64,000 bases of DNA from Tsukamurella sp. TY48 (GTDB taxonomy: Bacteria; Actinomycetota; Actinomycetes; Mycobacteriales; Mycobacteriaceae), in the NCBI RefSeq assembly GCF_019656655.1, contig NZ_BPMV01000001.1, positions 1,798,001 through 1,862,000 of the forward strand, read 5' to 3'. Below, one piece after another: positions 16,735 to 22,922 of the stretch (positions within the stretch are counted from its first letter, which is position 1; the number at the start of each line of letters is the position of its first letter). A program made the position numbers and the translations under genes. The notes beneath the pieces are model-generated. The model ran no database searches. It was not told the origin of the DNA and worked only from the letters and a program-made list of their open reading frames with translations.

Positions 16735-17298
16735 CTAGACTGCTGATACCAATTCGCTAAAGTTCTCTGGAATTGGGTCTCCGGAGCGGAGTCCTAGATC
16801 TTTCATCACCCGCAACGCTTTTGCGCAGTAGATCAGATATTCAGCCGTGGAGACGGTGTGATTCGCCCGGTCGCTGGGGTTCTCCAGGCCTGAAACAAAC
16901 TGAGGAGGATTAACGGGAACACACTCCGATTCCCCTATCGAGGATCGATCATTCGAGTTCAGCCATGCGTTAAATGAAGATGCATCAACAGCATTTAGCA
17001 TCGCCTCGCTCGGAAGTAGGCGCACAAACGACGCGAGATCGACAGTTTGATCATTTCCCATCGTAGAAGGATCAAAGATCCAAACCGGTGAGTTAGCGGC
17101 ACCACCTTCGCCGGCATCGACCCAGTACTGCACACCGCGCCAGTCTCCTGCAATGACCCTGGCCTGCTTACCTAGGATTGCACTGATGATGCTAGACAGT
17201 GTGCTTGCAGCGTTGGCGTCGTACACTTGCATCGCTCCACTTCCGATTGACACGAAAGCGTCACCGCTAGACGAGTCTCCTGATTCAACGGTAGCCAT
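16735..17298 (-). CDS. Putative immunity protein of the adjacent polymorphic toxin
   Basis: A 187-residue soluble, acidic protein with no signal peptide, located 50 bases downstream of the toxin gene on the same strand. This is the usual place for the immunity gene. It contains VIAGDWRGVQYWVDAGEGGA and VWIFDPSTMGNDQTVDLASF but no family that I recognise. Starts at 17328 and 17316 are possible; ATG 17298 has GGAAAGG in front and is preferred. The gene is visibly richer in A+T than the genes around it, as is the toxin tip, which suggests recent acquisition. The immunity role is inferred from position only. Confidence 0.6.
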   Translation of the reverse strand: MATVESGDSSSGDAFVSIGSGAMQVYDANAASTLSSIISAILGKQARVIAGDWRGVQYWVDAGEGGAANSPVWIFDPSTMGNDQTVDLASFVRLLPSEAMLNAVDASSFNAWLNSNDRSSIGESECVPVNPPQFVSGLENPSDRANHTVSTAEYLIYCAKALRVMKDLGLRSGDPIPENFSELVSAV

Positions 17299-17348
17299 TA
17301 AGTCGGGCCTTTCCATAGGTGGTGGCAACGAGGAGAGATACTACTATC

Positions 17349-20093
17349 TTAGCGTACTAGAGATTGTCCGCCTTTCCAAATGATCTCGGAAATCACATCT
17401 CCTTCAGTGAGTCCGGCTGCCTTGATTGCGTTCGCGATGCGGGCACCCATACTCTTATTGACTGAGGCGTTAAGGAGCTGTAGGTTTCCGAGCGCATTTT
17501 CCCCTCCCAGTTGGAGGTCAATTATGTGATCTACATTCCATCCCTTCGGAACAAGAAACTTACCAGCCGCATTGGTCGGTGCGTTTCCGAGCGCCGACAG
17601 GAACTTCTGCTTAATACTATCGAATCCTGATCGTACGGGCTTCGTTATTGTCAGACCATCATTGAGTATCGAGTCAAGATTTAGCTCTACAAGCTTCGCG
17701 ATCTCCTGATTGATCTGGTCGACAGTGAATTTCGCCGGCGGATGCGAGATCTCCAGGATCTTTCCTGGCGGGGGTGTGATGCCGCCTTCCGCAGCTTCCG
17801 CCAGCGCTCGCGCGGTATTCGCCCCCGCGCTACCCGCTGATTCAGCACCGCCACGCGCCGCCGTGCTGGCTGCATCACCTGCGGCGTCTGTCGCGGCTCT
17901 GCCTGCGGTGCTGGCCGCATCACCTGCGGAATCCGTCGCAGCCCTGCCTGCGGTGCTGGCTGCGTCACCTGCCGCGTCTGTCGCGGCTCGTCCGGCTGTT
18001 TGCGCGGCGTCGGAGGCGACCTGTGTACCGGTACTAGCCGCATCGCCTGCGGCGTCTGTCGCGGCTCTGCCTGCGGTGCTGGCCGCATCACCTGCGGCAT
18101 CCGTCGCGGCCCTGCCTGCCGTGCTGGCAACGTCACCGGCGGCTTCTGCTGCTTTGCCTGTTGTTTTGGCGGTGGCTTGGGCGGCTTCCTCGGCGCCCTT
18201 GGCGACCTTGCCAGCGGTGGAGGCGACCTTTCCTGCGCCCTTGGTGGGGTCGACTAGCACCTGGAGGACGTTGCCAGCCACCTTGCCGGAGGCGTATGCG
18301 GTGTCGCCGTTGGCGAAGTCATCGGCTGCGACGAAGGATTTGCCGACGGCTTTCCAGGAGTCGCCGACGCCGGGTGCGCCGTCGCCGCCAAGGCCCACGA
18401 GTGGGGCCATGCCCTTGGCGGTGTCGACGGGGTGGGCGACCATCTGGCCGACGCCTTCGGCGGTGTCGAGGACGCTGCGGCCGACGCCGGCACCGAAGTT
18501 CTTCACGCCACTGCCAACGCTTTTGACCTTGTCCCAGAACGGGTCGGCGATGATCGGGTAGACGTTGTCCGGTCCCGGTTCGATGTGCTGGACCATTTCG
18601 TCGCCGTCGATGTCGTACCAGGTGGGTACTTCCTTGCCGTTGGCGTCGTAGGCCCAGGGGGCGTTGAACTGGCCGACCTGCTCGCCATTGCGGTCGAAGA
18701 CGGAGATCGATCCGTCGTCGTTCTTGACCGACCGGCCGCCTTCTGGGGTGTTGAGCGGGAACCGGTACTGCTTAGGAGCGTCCTGGTTCTTCATCAGGAT
18801 CAGCTTCTGGTAGTCCCCGTCTTCCTTGGGGACGGTGATGATGTCGTAGCTCGGGTCGGCACTGGTGCCGTCCGGATTGAGCTTGAGACCCGCCATTCGG
18901 GCCATCTCCTCCGGGCTGCGGCCGGCGCTGCCACCGGGCTGCGCCTGATCCCACAGCTTCCACGCCTGATCAGCGGTGGGCTTGGAACCACCGCTGGTGT
19001 TGCGGCGACGGCCGGCCATGACACCGGTGGCCTCCGCGACGAGGTACGACCATGACGGTGCGCCGTCCTTGTTCTCACCGTCCCCGTCGGGACCGCTGCC
19101 GCCTTCCGTGCCGGGAGCGCCGGGGCCCCCGTTGCCGCCAGGAGCTCCGCCGTTGCCGGCGGCGCCGGGAGCGGGGCACTGCGATTGGGTCTGCGTGACG
19201 GTCACCGTCGACTGGGAGGGCTGCCCGGATTGTGTCGGCTGGCCGGTCTGCTGCTGGCCGGTCTGGTCGGGGCGCCCAGGGGCGGTCGTGCGGACCGGGT
19301 TCTGCTGGCCGGTCTGTTGGCCCTGCGCCGGCTGCTGCTGGCCGCCCTGGCCGGGCTGTTCGTTGCCGGGGATGTTCGGGGCCTGCTGGCCGGGGGTGCC
19401 GAACTCGGGGGTTTGGGCTTGGATGCCGGGGCCGTTGTCACCGCCCTGCGAGGGGGAGGTGGCGATCCCGTTGTCCTGCCCACCCTGCTGCCCACCTTGC
19501 TGCCCACCCGGCGCGCCGGTCTGGGCAGGCGGCGGTGTGAAGGTGAGCGTCGGCGCGTTCGGGTCCGGGCCGCAGGTGGCGGGTCCACCACCCGGGCATG
19601 GCGCCGCCGACGCGACACCACTGCCTGCGGTGGTGGCGGCGAACCCCATCATCCCGACCGCCACCACAATGCCGGCGACTGCGGCGGCGGCGCGCACCTG
19701 CTGCGGCGCCGGGGCCCCGACGCCGGCTTCGCGGAGCTTGTTCAGTCCGGTGAACAGGATCCGGCCGACGATGACCATAACGAGCCAGAAAGTCAGGAAC
19801 ACCACCGGCACCGGGGTGAACCGGGGCGCTTCGATGGAGAAGAGGACACCGCCGACGATCCCGGCGATACCGATGATCGTGAGGAACGCGCCCTGCAGAC
19901 GTTGCTGTAGCAGCTGCGGTCGCTGCCCAGCCTGCCCGCCCGGGTTGTTGGGGCGTTGCACCGGGAACTGGGCGGTATCACCCGCGGGGGTGTTGCGGGC
20001 GTGCCGCGGGCCACCCGCAGGAAGCGGTGTGGGCTGCGGCGGACGCCCGCCTGCGGCTGACCCGCCAGGGGTGGGGCTGCTGCTTACTGACAT
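17349..20093 (-). CDS. Polymorphic toxin with membrane segments, Ala-rich repeats and HNH-type nuclease tip
   Basis: A 914-residue modular protein. It begins with a Pro/Gly-rich cytosolic segment of about 60 residues, then three hydrophobic segments (LQGAFLTIIGIAGIVGGVLF, VVFLTFWLVMVIVGRILF, AAAVAGIVVAVGMMGFA). A long Gly/Gln/Pro linker follows, then a middle domain ending EPGPDNVYPIIADPFW. Next are five near-identical 15-residue repeats (STAGRAATDAAGDAA). The last 130 residues carry WNVDHIIDLQLGGENALGNL (from about residue 852), the DH...N...N pattern of HNH/Endo VII nucleases, followed by QLLNASVNKSMGARI. A GTG/ATG start at 20162 is possible, but ATG 20093 has GAGGAG upstream. DNA or RNA cleavage in a rival cell is inferred. 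Confidence 0.85.
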   Translation of the reverse strand: MSVSSSPTPGGSAAGGRPPQPTPLPAGGPRHARNTPAGDTAQFPVQRPNNPGGQAGQRPQLLQQRLQGAFLTIIGIAGIVGGVLFSIEAPRFTPVPVVFLTFWLVMVIVGRILFTGLNKLREAGVGAPAPQQVRAAAAVAGIVVAVGMMGFAATTAGSGVASAAPCPGGGPATCGPDPNAPTLTFTPPPAQTGAPGGQQGGQQGGQDNGIATSPSQGGDNGPGIQAQTPEFGTPGQQAPNIPGNEQPGQGGQQQPAQGQQTGQQNPVRTTAPGRPDQTGQQQTGQPTQSGQPSQSTVTVTQTQSQCPAPGAAGNGGAPGGNGGPGAPGTEGGSGPDGDGENKDGAPSWSYLVAEATGVMAGRRRNTSGGSKPTADQAWKLWDQAQPGGSAGRSPEEMARMAGLKLNPDGTSADPSYDIITVPKEDGDYQKLILMKNQDAPKQYRFPLNTPEGGRSVKNDDGSISVFDRNGEQVGQFNAPWAYDANGKEVPTWYDIDGDEMVQHIEPGPDNVYPIIADPFWDKVKSVGSGVKNFGAGVGRSVLDTAEGVGQMVAHPVDTAKGMAPLVGLGGDGAPGVGDSWKAVGKSFVAADDFANGDTAYASGKVAGNVLQVLVDPTKGAGKVASTAGKVAKGAEEAAQATAKTTGKAAEAAGDVASTAGRAATDAAGDAASTAGRAATDAAGDAASTGTQVASDAAQTAGRAATDAAGDAASTAGRAATDSAGDAASTAGRAATDAAGDAASTAARGGAESAGSAGANTARALAEAAEGGITPPPGKILEISHPPAKFTVDQINQEIAKLVELNLDSILNDGLTITKPVRSGFDSIKQKFLSALGNAPTNAAGKFLVPKGWNVDHIIDLQLGGENALGNLQLLNASVNKSMGARIANAIKAAGLTEGDVISEIIWKGGQSLVR
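17860..18140 (-). repeat. 45-base tandem repeats within the toxin gene
   Basis: Five near-complete copies of a 45-base unit encode STAGRAATDAAGDAA. One variant insertion (STGTQVASDAAQ) splits the array and a degenerate copy ends it. The unit lies just before the nuclease tip and probably forms an elongated alpha-helical linker. Copy number is likely variable between strains. Confidence 0.85.
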
Positions 20094-20443: not shown

Positions 20444-20740
20444 GTGACGCAGCAGGTGTCGGACACGACGGCACCGCCAGTGGGTGGTGACCCCGCGGCG
20501 GAGGCGGCGGACGCGCAGCGGGCGATGGCGATGAAGCTGATCGGCCTGCTGTTCGGTGCGGCCCTGTTGATCGGGTGCTCGTTCGCCGTCTCCCACCTAA
20601 ACGCCTGGGGGGCGAAGATCGGCATGCCCTGGGTGTTCCTGGCCTTCGTGCTAGCGATGATGATCGCCAGCCACTTCACCGTCGCCGGCGCCACCGCCCT
20701 CTGGCAGGCACTACGCCGCCCACCATCAGCGGCGAAGTAG
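20444..20740 (+). CDS. Small two-helix membrane protein
   Basis: A 98-residue protein, MTQQVSDTTAPPVGGDPAAE followed by two hydrophobic segments (KLIGLLFGAALLIGCSFAVS; MPWVFLAFVLAMMIASHFTV) joined by a short loop. It starts with GTG 20444 after CGAGGGGGATTTGC. Its stop is immediately followed by the ATG of the next gene (TAGATG), so the two are tightly coupled. I do not recognise the family. A membrane partner of the downstream HTH protein is the simplest idea. Confidence 0.75.
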   Translation: MTQQVSDTTAPPVGGDPAAEAADAQRAMAMKLIGLLFGAALLIGCSFAVSHLNAWGAKIGMPWVFLAFVLAMMIASHFTVAGATALWQALRRPPSAAK

Positions 20741-21859
20741 ATGCCCACACCGCCACCGCCACCGCAGCCGCGCTCATCCAGTGAGGGTGGGTTCGGCTCG
20801 GCACTGCGGGAGCTGTTCACCGCCGCCGGCAGTCCCACCCTCGCCGACACTGCGGAGGCGGCGAACGCGGCCGGAGCCCACGGCGTGACCGCCCAGCGGC
20901 TATCGAACTGGCGCTCCGGCCGGCACCTTCCCGACCGCTTCGACACCATCGCACCGGTCCTGATCTGGCTCACCCTCCGCGCCCGCGAACACCACAACAA
21001 TCATCCGGTCGATGGCCAAGCCGGTGGCGCTGTGTCGGTGCGGTCGATGCGTGATTGGTATCGCCTGTTCACCGGCGAGCAGAGTCCCATCGCGGCCGCG
21101 GCGCTGGATCTGAAAGCCCGAATCGACGCAGTCGAGTTCCTCCTCGCCCACCCCGAACCCGAGGGTGGGAACTACGACAACCCGCTGGGCGGCGACGGGG
21201 CCGCCGCGGGTGATTCCTTCGCTCCTGCGCGGCTGACCGCAGAGCTGAAGACGGCGGTCCTGCAACTGACCGGCATCGACCCTGTTACCAGCATTCCTGT
21301 GGCCACCGATGTTCCCTACGGTGAGCTTCCTGCCGACGCGGCAGACCTACTCTCCGCAACCGGCCTCATCACCGCAGCTACGGCCCAGCCCGAGCAAGTC
21401 CGATCGATGATGCGGTGGACGGACCCGAAGATCGCCACCCTCTGGGGTAGGGCCGCCCCGCTCATCGAGCAGTACCGGCCCGCTCTCGAAGCCCGGACCG
21501 CTCTGCTCGCCGATGCTGCGCGCTGGAACACTCGCCCCGACCCGCACAGCCTCTACACCTGGCAACAGCTCACCGCGTGCGGCAGGCACCTATACGCTCT
21601 CCCGGCAGCCATCGTCGCCACCACAGCGATCCCCGGCGGCAGCGCGCGCCCCGCGGCCTCGCCTGCTCCGCGGACATACCGATTCGGCGACGGGGCCACC
21701 GCCGAGCACATTCCCAGCCCAGCTCTGCCGTTCTGGGACGCCTCCCACACCGCAGCCGAACGACAGCTGACGGTGCACCGGCTGATCATGGCCACCGTCA
21801 TCGGCCTCATCGTCATCGGCGTGATCGCCGCCGGCATCGCTGGCATCCTCACCAGCTAA
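20741..21859 (+). CDS. HTH-like regulator anchored by a C-terminal membrane helix
   Basis: A 372-residue protein. Residues 17-75 (GSALRELFTAAGSPTLADTA, GVTAQRLSNWRSGRHLPDRF, DTIAPVLIWLTLRAR) resemble the atypical HTH that actinobacteria place at the N-terminus of signalling proteins. The middle is helical and Ala-rich. The final residues (LIMATVIGLIVIGVIAAGIA) form one membrane helix, so DNA binding, if real, would take place at the membrane. It is coupled to the small membrane protein upstream and is divergent from the polymorphic toxin. No known family is recognised. Confidence 0.75.
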   Translation: MPTPPPPPQPRSSSEGGFGSALRELFTAAGSPTLADTAEAANAAGAHGVTAQRLSNWRSGRHLPDRFDTIAPVLIWLTLRAREHHNNHPVDGQAGGAVSVRSMRDWYRLFTGEQSPIAAAALDLKARIDAVEFLLAHPEPEGGNYDNPLGGDGAAAGDSFAPARLTAELKTAVLQLTGIDPVTSIPVATDVPYGELPADAADLLSATGLITAATAQPEQVRSMMRWTDPKIATLWGRAAPLIEQYRPALEARTALLADAARWNTRPDPHSLYTWQQLTACGRHLYALPAAIVATTAIPGGSARPAASPAPRTYRFGDGATAEHIPSPALPFWDASHTAAERQLTVHRLIMATVIGLIVIGVIAAGIAGILTS

Positions 21860-22010: not shown

Positions 22011-22922
22011 ATGACCAGCACACGCACCCGCACGTCTGCGGCATCGAAGACACTCGTCGCGCTCTGCGCAGCCGCCGCAGCAGTCACCCTCGCCGCCGGC
22101 CCCGTCATCGCCGCACCCGCGCCGGCCCCCAAGCCGGCTCCCGCAGCGGCTGCCGCGAAGCCCGCGGCCCAGGCTGCGGTCACCCCGCCGCCCGCACCCC
22201 GCATGCGGGTCCCCGTCCCCGGGCAGATCCGCGAGGGCGAGTTCGCCGACACCAGCCGCGAACTGATCACCCGCGACGGCTGGAAGGTCACCGTTTCCAA
22301 GTTCGGGGAGAAGCTCGATTCCGTTCCGCCGCTGAACAGATCGCCCCAGAGCTTCGAGGGATTCAGCTCCGTAGGCGGTGAGGCGAAGATCGAAGCCGAA
22401 CACCCCAACGACCCAAAGCGTAAGCCCACCAGTCGAATCAAGTCGGCAACTCTCACTACAGGGGTCCAAGTTGGCTGTGCCGTCACCGCCGACAGCTTGA
22501 CCCTTGGTGGGTCACTGTCGAACGCGACCACCGCCTCGATCACCCCGACCGTCACCGCATCCGGCACCGTCACCGGGCAGGGCCAGGGCGGCTCCGGTGG
22601 CGGGCAAGGCGGCGGCAGCGTCTCCGGCACCGGAACAGGCTCGTTGTCGGGCACCCTCTCGGACACCGTCACCGAGACAGGCAACATCTCCGGCATCCTC
22701 AAGCCCGGCACCACCAAAGACATCCCCTACGCCAAGAAGGCCGTCGTCGGCCCCAACGCGCAAGTCATGTCCCGCGACATCCGCATCGCCGTCGACAACT
22801 GCATCGGAGGGGTCCAGGTCCGGACCTACGCCACCGTCGCCATCAGCACCGACGCCACCGACGACACCCTCACCACCTTCGGCAAGCCGATCTTCCTGAC
22901 CCGCCCCGAACAGAACCGGTAG
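22011..22922 (+). CDS. MspA-family porin-like secreted protein
   Basis: A 303-residue protein with a clear signal peptide (ASKTLVALCAAAAAVTLAAG, cleavage near AAPAPAP) and an Ala/Pro-rich linker of about 45 residues. The MspA-like pattern is GWKVTVSKFGEKLDSVPPLN, FSSVGGEAKIEAE, TLTTGVQVGCAVTADSLTLG, LKPGTTKDIPY, and DIRIAVDNCIGGVQVRTYAT with DTLTTFGKPIFL at the end. MspA proteins form octameric outer-membrane channels in mycolic-acid bacteria. A Gly/Ser/Gln-rich insert near residues 190-210 is unusual. I chose ATG 22011; an in-frame TTG at 21981 is an alternative. The segment 21860-22010 holds no gene. Confidence 0.85.
   Translation: MTSTRTRTSAASKTLVALCAAAAAVTLAAGPVIAAPAPAPKPAPAAAAAKPAAQAAVTPPPAPRMRVPVPGQIREGEFADTSRELITRDGWKVTVSKFGEKLDSVPPLNRSPQSFEGFSSVGGEAKIEAEHPNDPKRKPTSRIKSATLTTGVQVGCAVTADSLTLGGSLSNATTASITPTVTASGTVTGQGQGGSGGGQGGGSVSGTGTGSLSGTLSDTVTETGNISGILKPGTTKDIPYAKKAVVGPNAQVMSRDIRIAVDNCIGGVQVRTYATVAISTDATDDTLTTFGKPIFLTRPEQNR

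Follow-up and report, generated by a model that had tools for sequence, protein, structure and literature searches.

A probable polymorphic toxin–immunity pair of Tsukamurella in a cassette with an MspA-family porin

Introduction

How proteins pass the mycolic-acid outer membrane is a long-standing question. In contact-dependent inhibition (CDI; CdiB/CdiA), a long toxin, whose tip is exchangeable, is encoded next to a dedicated outer-membrane pore. Here we analyze a 64,000-nucleotide stretch of Tsukamurella sp. TY48 (contig NZ_BPMV01000001.1, positions 1,798,001 to 1,862,000; hereafter the window), in which a 914-residue protein, very probably a polymorphic toxin, and a 187-residue partner protein are encoded close to a porin of the MspA family. 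The host genome comprises 4.37 Mb in two contigs.

Several described systems bear on this arrangement. For polymorphic toxins, the parts of Zhang et al. (2012; PMC3482391) drawn on here name eight secretion routes and do not mention MspA. According to the abstracts, CpnT requires type VII secretion and is an outer-membrane protein in its own right. The WXG-100 polymorphic toxins of Mycobacterium abscessus prophages are exported by type VII secretion (PMC8092301), and the portion of that paper used here mentions MspA once, in a figure legend, as a plasmid porin unconnected to those toxins. Closticin 574 is made as a 309-residue pre-protein and reduced to 82 residues after secretion by extracellular processing, as stated in the excerpt of PMC10888436 considered here. 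Among titles and the starts of abstracts in the open-licence literature we found nothing that links MspA to polymorphic toxins, which does not prove that no such report exists.

A conserved trunk with exchangeable tips

The locus is very probably a polymorphic toxin–immunity pair, because its homologues share a constant N-terminal trunk on which the tips are exchanged. The toxin and its partner are laid out as follows:

17349..20093, minus strand: 914-residue polymorphic toxin (open reading frame, ATG start)
19611..19901, minus strand: toxin trunk with three hydrophobic segments (residues 65-161), read from the sequence; the trunk is conserved
19596..19613, minus strand: ASAAPC, a signal-peptidase-like site (residues 161-166); pattern present in 24 of 25 proteins with this trunk
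19074..19595, minus strand: Gly/Gln/Pro/Thr linker (residues 167-340), read from the sequence
18540..18875, minus strand: closticin-like proregion ending in YPIIADP (residues 407-518), with a possible cut between Asp517 and Pro518 (homology, model)
17863..18148, minus strand: Ala-rich repeats of 15 residues each (45-nt tandem array, 6.6 copies)
17352..17741, minus strand: HNH-like tip, the last 130 residues (sub-threshold HNH match, tip alignment, GC 0.495)
16735..17298, minus strand: 187-residue candidate immunity protein (ATG start; GC 0.530)

All the parts that a preliminary description of this DNA had listed are present, namely a Pro-rich start (rich in Pro and Gly), three hydrophobic segments (residues 65-92, 89-120 and 131-161), a Gly/Gln linker, the YPIIADP sequence (residues 512-518), the 15-residue repeats and the tip motif, which reads DHIIDLQLGGEN...N.

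We count 26 loci with the trunk of the window toxin (trunk 1), spread over 13 of 16 Tsukamurella genomes; the figure was obtained from 28 rows by merging two rows of genome G001 and omitting a 36-residue match with a stop in G008. A scan of named genomes confirmed ten trunk-1 loci, every one in Tsukamurella, and four of 298 genomes of the order match, three of them Tsukamurella and one a weak match with two stops. Three further trunk-1 proteins are encoded in the host genome (P0003-P0005), each with a different end: a glycine-zipper tail with a membrane-protein gene after it, a DNA/RNA non-specific endonuclease (PF13930, E 1.5e-9), and an end of unassigned type.

Whether homologues vary their tips had been named beforehand as a check, and they do: the median identity of the 19 strong trunks is 0.83 over up to 110 residues, and a tip is shared (score of at least 100) in 10 of their 171 pairs. 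Taking both trunk types described here together, we count 31 tip clusters among 42 proteins, an upper bound since the ends of L016, L067 and L080 may be frame-shifted. At sister loci the tips above the Pfam cut-off are WHH (3.8e-14), TNT (2.6e-19) and NS_2 (1.5e-9 and 1.3e-19), and the locus with the WHH tip has two SUKH neighbours (SUKH at 1.7e-7 among the sister loci); Tox-REase-5, DUF4258 and Gly-zipper matches of sister tips lie below the cut-off.

The tip of the window toxin is a probable HNH nuclease with a sub-threshold family match. In an alignment of seven tips, DH, D, LQ.GG, N, L and SVN.S.G are invariant or kept. The tip has matches in six of 394 genomes of the class, the host genome included. 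By sequence similarity its relatives occur on unrelated trunks: in another genus the relative at L170 ends an RHS protein (40% identity over 55 residues, E 5e-12; RHS_repeat 3.7e-11), that at L169 ends a PT-HINT protein (PT-HINT 3e-17), and that at L173 lies almost at the protein end; in L171 and L172 the match sits mid-protein, and the L172 match is weak. Together with the exchange of tips, these relatives on unrelated trunks support the earlier reading of the protein as a polymorphic toxin. A scan of viral contigs with the tip returned no relative, and a search of the tip against solved structures returned nothing usable.

The composition of the toxin gene changes at the tip, from a GC of 0.702 over the first 781 codons to 0.495. 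The partner gene, which follows the toxin reading frame after a gap of 50 nt, has a GC of 0.530 against 0.679 for the window; it had been called AT-rich, which is correct in relative terms. Judged from this drop in GC, it looks as if tip and partner gene arrived jointly. As the earlier description had also supposed, the partner belongs to no recognized family: the 187-residue protein has neither a Pfam nor an NCBIfam match. An alternative TTG start 30 nt upstream would give 197 residues.

The partner gene, as far as sequence comparison tells, moves with the tip, for the 187-residue protein accompanies the same tip in L013 and L014, placed after it. The gene 3' of the RHS toxin in L170 may be a distant relative, a weak match (BLAST E 0.006; profile E 0.00026, probability 42%). 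One Rhodococcus plasmid encodes another relative (26% identity over 96%, E 2e-7), with no recognized toxin adjoining it. This gene (L167:10582-11130; NZ_CP014942.1 440581-441129) is about 7 kb from the MspA cassette of that plasmid and is perhaps an orphan immunity gene.

The domain search of the 914-residue toxin found no match to RHS repeats or domain, to haemagglutinin or TPS two-partner domains, to HINT, to the PrsW peptidase domain, or to a WXG or LXG N-terminal domain of type VII substrates. The protein had been set apart from RHS and CDI proteins beforehand, and the lack of any RHS or two-partner match agrees with this. Delivery by RHS, CDI, PrsW or type VII routes was discarded as the toxin has no such domain. 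None of the five window proteins run through PADLOC matched at E 0.01.

The third hydrophobic segment terminates at ASAAPC, a site absent from the preliminary description, and an AxA followed by CP is conserved after this segment in 24 of 25 trunk-1 proteins (this test and the ADP test below omit L019, whose toxin is split into two open reading frames). The toxin may be cleaved by signal peptidase after AxA, and therefore it may not remain anchored for good. Of the membrane anchoring proposed earlier, the hydrophobic segments thus stand, but the anchoring itself may not persist.

An MspA porin and a two-helix protein beside two unrelated trunks

Divergent from the toxin gene, the window holds three further genes of the cassette:

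20444..20740, plus strand: small core partner of 98 residues, with two hydrophobic segments (hydrophobicity; profile homology)
20741..21859, plus strand: HTH-like protein of 372 residues, with a membrane segment at its C-terminal end (kin in other cassettes)
22011..22922, plus strand: MspA-family porin of a toxin-linked clade (PF09203, E 4.4e-41; match listed from 22014, one codon past the ATG)

With 141.1 bits against a cut-off of 22.9 for PF09203, the window porin belongs to the MspA family. The HTH name comes from sub-threshold Pfam matches of a relative in L014; the 372-residue window protein itself has no Pfam HTH match.

MspA adjoins 19 of the 26 trunk-1 loci (in L019 as a remnant only) and the HTH-like protein adjoins 20. 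With a broader model, L081 gains a small protein and L008 a weak HTH-like hit. No model detects MspA or the HTH-like protein at four loci (L017, L020, L071 and L072), the first of which is truncated by a contig end. Three gene orders recur: all genes co-directional (nine loci, of which four lack the small protein), MspA divergent from the other cassette genes (five loci), and MspA, HTH-like and small-protein genes divergent from the toxin (four loci, including the window). Stretches within 6 kb of an MspA gene make up about 2% of the host genome but hold three of its four trunk-1 toxins; these loci are kin by descent and not independent, so that computed probabilities are not to be taken literally.

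The same two partners accompany a second type of trunk. The proregion matched 24 plasmid records, of which five were examined; four of the 24 are Rhodococcus plasmids, and the three of these that were examined each have a porin gene annotated as MspA-family and genes for a small secreted protein, a two-helix protein and a large YPIxAD toxin, besides one further gene, so that all three Rhodococcus plasmid toxins examined adjoin MspA. The Tsukamurella and Rhodococcus trunks have no detectable relation (E 0.2), and a common trunk for the two types was rejected on this value; a hydrophobic YL... segment followed by basic residues occupies the same position in both. A search with the Rhodococcus-type trunk (trunk 2) in 251 genomes of the family gave 18 matches in 12 genomes of five genera. 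We fetched 15 of the 18, leaving out three short ones of 29-39 residues, and found MspA in 14 loci, the two-helix protein in 14 and the proregion in 13. At the fifteenth, L194, the end of an MspA lies at the contig edge, which puts MspA by 15 of 15 examined trunk-2 toxins.

Profile comparison shows the two-helix proteins of one cassette type to be homologous to those of the other (E 3.4e-10, probability 96.7%). A further resemblance links them to trunk 1, in its first two membrane segments (E 5.2e-6, probability 86%; E 3.5e-5, probability 72%), with the proviso that profile scores between hydrophobic segments can be inflated. It looks as if trunk 1 has taken in a copy of the two-helix module. 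By these comparisons, MspA and the two-helix protein are retained beside toxins of two unrelated trunks, and MspA plus the two-helix module look like the constant core of a cassette in which trunks and tips vary. In other genomes the small protein gives weak hits (L151-L158, L166), near which the general model detects no MspA; we regard them as distant relatives or chance matches. Hints that the small protein is SecE-like or CrgA-like fall far under the cut-off, and neither assignment is claimed.

Most toxin-linked MspAs constitute two separate clades. In a tree of 50 rows, 27 of them toxin-linked and most picked via their toxins, the label changes 4 times against a mean of 16.9 after shuffling, and the toxin-linked porins fall into a Tsukamurella clade (support 100/99) and a Rhodococcus-type clade (94/98). 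The tree omits L227, which is short, and L232, which gave no hit; the MspA of L031 stands outside both clades on a long branch. Within the Tsukamurella clade a single row, L225, is labelled non-linked; it directly adjoins a glycine-zipper tail and a gene for a membrane protein, which we take for what is left of a toxin. At nine other MspA loci, outside the clades, the models of trunk, proregion, HTH-like protein and small protein found nothing.

A whole-genome count is fairer than the tree, whose rows were mostly chosen through toxins. Among 43 MspA matches in seven genomes, 19 adjoin a toxin or remnant and 16 examined ones do not by the models used; the remaining eight form two tandem clusters outside the examined set. 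The host genome itself has 11 MspA domains, three adjoining trunk-1 toxins and a fourth in L064; the loci of the seven others gave no hit to the same four models.

The L064 locus of the host genome (L064:5166-9244; G000:C1:2188000-2199000) consists of an MspA gene, directly after it the gene for a secreted protein rich in Pro and Thr, in which we read an HNH-like motif (best Pfam match sub-threshold), and a SUKH gene (1.3e-8) about 0.9 kb farther on. It is perhaps a third kind of MspA-linked toxin.

Some cassettes contain insertion sequence (IS) elements, and some have decayed. Transposase reading frames lie inside the toxin region in L161 and L150, L237 keeps a toxin tail and partner gene beside MspA, and L019 has an MspA remnant at its split toxin.

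The MspA domain spans 203-207 residues in the four toxin-linked genes of the host against 172-189 in the seven others, the extra length apparently owed to a Gly-rich stretch; the Rhodococcus-type toxin-linked MspA is short, at about 169 residues by match coordinates. Aligned with the solved MspA 1uun (E 3.1e-6), L192:5097-5795 has small neutral residues opposite the acidic IDDGD of MspA, a difference that might bear on the width of the pore. For the window MspA, the search against solved structures gave nothing usable.

The YPIIADP proregion

By homology, the YPIIADP domain is a proregion also found in closticin-like bacteriocins. Counterparts of residues 407-518 occur on Streptomyces, Clavibacter and Rhodococcus plasmids and in phage Min1, and residues 409-533 match a Paenibacillus phage protein named 'putative closticin' (29.3% identity, E 3e-11). 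In one alignment 12 of 13 proregions finish with ADP, L089 having ADG instead; in a second 17 of 20 do, and the others read IDP, VDP and ADAP. We infer a cut at Asp–Pro, because the printed primer for a closticin relative implies a predicted mature form that starts with Pro, according to the part of PMC10888436 at hand.

Across Actinobacteria and phages (L124-L133, L086, L087, L090 and L091) the proregion precedes many unlike secreted C-terminal parts, among them a phospholipase A2-like part that scores above the Pfam cut-off in L133 and slightly under it in L132. It appears to be a maturation module that secreted antagonistic proteins share widely. In the proteins tested it has no significant Pfam or NCBIfam match, the best Pfam match in the toxin being Bflower at E 0.49. 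Its predicted model is all beta with a pLDDT of 90.7; the model has no match in the PDB below E 0.04 and two viral matches at or below 0.001, and a search of the proregion against solved structures gave nothing usable.

The host genome also encodes a 1037-residue protein with the same proregion and a different N-terminus (L010:4677-7790), flanked on both sides by reading frames that share a transposase-like start.

A possible export route and its alternatives

The best overall explanation, which we hold with even confidence, is that export of the toxin has two stages, with its own MspA serving the second; the MspA step taken by itself is more tentative. For the export role, cleavage, toxicity and immunity, we infer the following course. 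The trunk would enter the inner membrane by Sec with its N-terminus inside, and its third segment would either be cut by signal peptidase or hold the chain, so that everything from the linker onward lies outside the inner membrane. The small two-helix protein, akin to the first two membrane segments of the trunk, would assist at this stage. The unfolded chain would then cross the mycolic-acid outer membrane, or be displayed through it, via the MspA of the cassette, and the cut at Asp–Pro in the proregion would release the repeat region and tip. The tip, as a probable HNH nuclease, would enter a neighbouring cell and cut nucleic acid, the cytosolic 187-residue protein would shield kin, and the membrane-bound HTH-like protein would regulate the cassette. 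More generally, mycolic-acid bacteria possibly have a two-partner secretion of their own, in which a dedicated MspA and a two-helix protein export or display toxins of at least two unrelated trunks, one with an absorbed copy of the two-helix protein; this broader proposal falls somewhat short of an even chance.

A number of points weigh against such a route. MspA is a narrow pore, and gene neighbourhood does not prove export. Even with the broader model, MspA is absent from the fetched stretch in seven of the 26 trunk-1 loci, and the small two-helix protein is near 14 of them, or 15 with that model. The choice of most tree rows via toxins and the possible inflation of profile scores, both noted above, count here too. 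The ADP motif is seen in 12 of 25 trunk-1 proteins, and two Rhodococcus toxins read ADG at its position. As to the tip, the HNH assignment made in the preliminary description is sub-threshold, the tip alone scoring 19.0 bits against Pfam HNH (PF01844) with a cut-off of 21.4, and the predicted model of the tip (pLDDT 42) is unusable.

Alternatively, the toxin could be displayed at the surface or released while MspA has no role in delivery and shares the variable island for other reasons. We consider this unlikely: the seven trunk-1 toxins without MspA nearby and the IS elements in some cassettes speak for it, but the genes stay together across three gene orders and two cassette types, and MspAs outside the clades lack such neighbours by the models used. 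Colicins use outer-membrane proteins, and MspA could similarly be the receptor or translocator on target cells, with kin holding both porin and immunity gene and the toxin entering through MspA-like porins. A porin matched to its toxin would explain the linkage and the separate clades equally well; however, the porin tracks the trunk type and the small membrane protein and not one tip, which fits a role on the producer side better, and we regard the receptor role as distinctly unlikely. A third reading, in which the large protein belongs to the surface or envelope without being a toxin and the downstream gene has nothing to do with it, is highly improbable: the tip family is sub-threshold and its toxicity is putative, but tips are exchanged, sister loci have WHH, TNT and NS_2 tips and SUKH neighbours, tip and partner gene share a low GC, and relatives of the tip end RHS and PT-HINT toxins.

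The delivery route of such toxins had been described beforehand as not well characterized, and the porin gene had been overlooked; two-step export through MspA would tie that gene to a route. An MspA gene retained beside toxins of two unrelated trunks provides a concrete candidate for export across the mycolic-acid outer membrane. The MspA pore serves in nanopore work, and if the proposal is true, a natural protein-exporting relative would be of interest to that field.

Comparison with known systems

The locus shares with CDI a long toxin, an exchangeable tip and an adjoining gene for an outer-membrane pore; it differs in that MspA is an unrelated pore family and the window toxin has no match to a two-partner domain. 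RHS and PT-HINT toxins bear relatives of the window tip (L170 and L169), whereas the window toxin has no RHS or HINT match. With polymorphic toxin systems in general, as set out in the parts of PMC3482391 used here, it has in common a constant N-terminal part, exchangeable C-terminal tips and a partner directly downstream, and MspA is not among the routes named there.

With CpnT/TNT, as described in the abstracts, it would share a toxin tip that crosses a mycolic-acid outer membrane, and one Rhodococcus cassette has a TNT tip; in the window cassette, by contrast, pore and toxin are separate genes. The WXG-100 toxins of M. abscessus are likewise polymorphic toxin–immunity cassettes of a mycolic-acid genus but use type VII export, in the account given by the portion of PMC8092301 considered, whereas the window toxin has no match to a WXG domain. 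Closticin 574-like bacteriocins have a homologous proregion with ADP before the active part and are, going by the excerpt of PMC10888436, short secreted bacteriocins in contrast to this large toxin. The toxin is of an already known kind; the MspA cassette around it is new, as far as the literature search reached.

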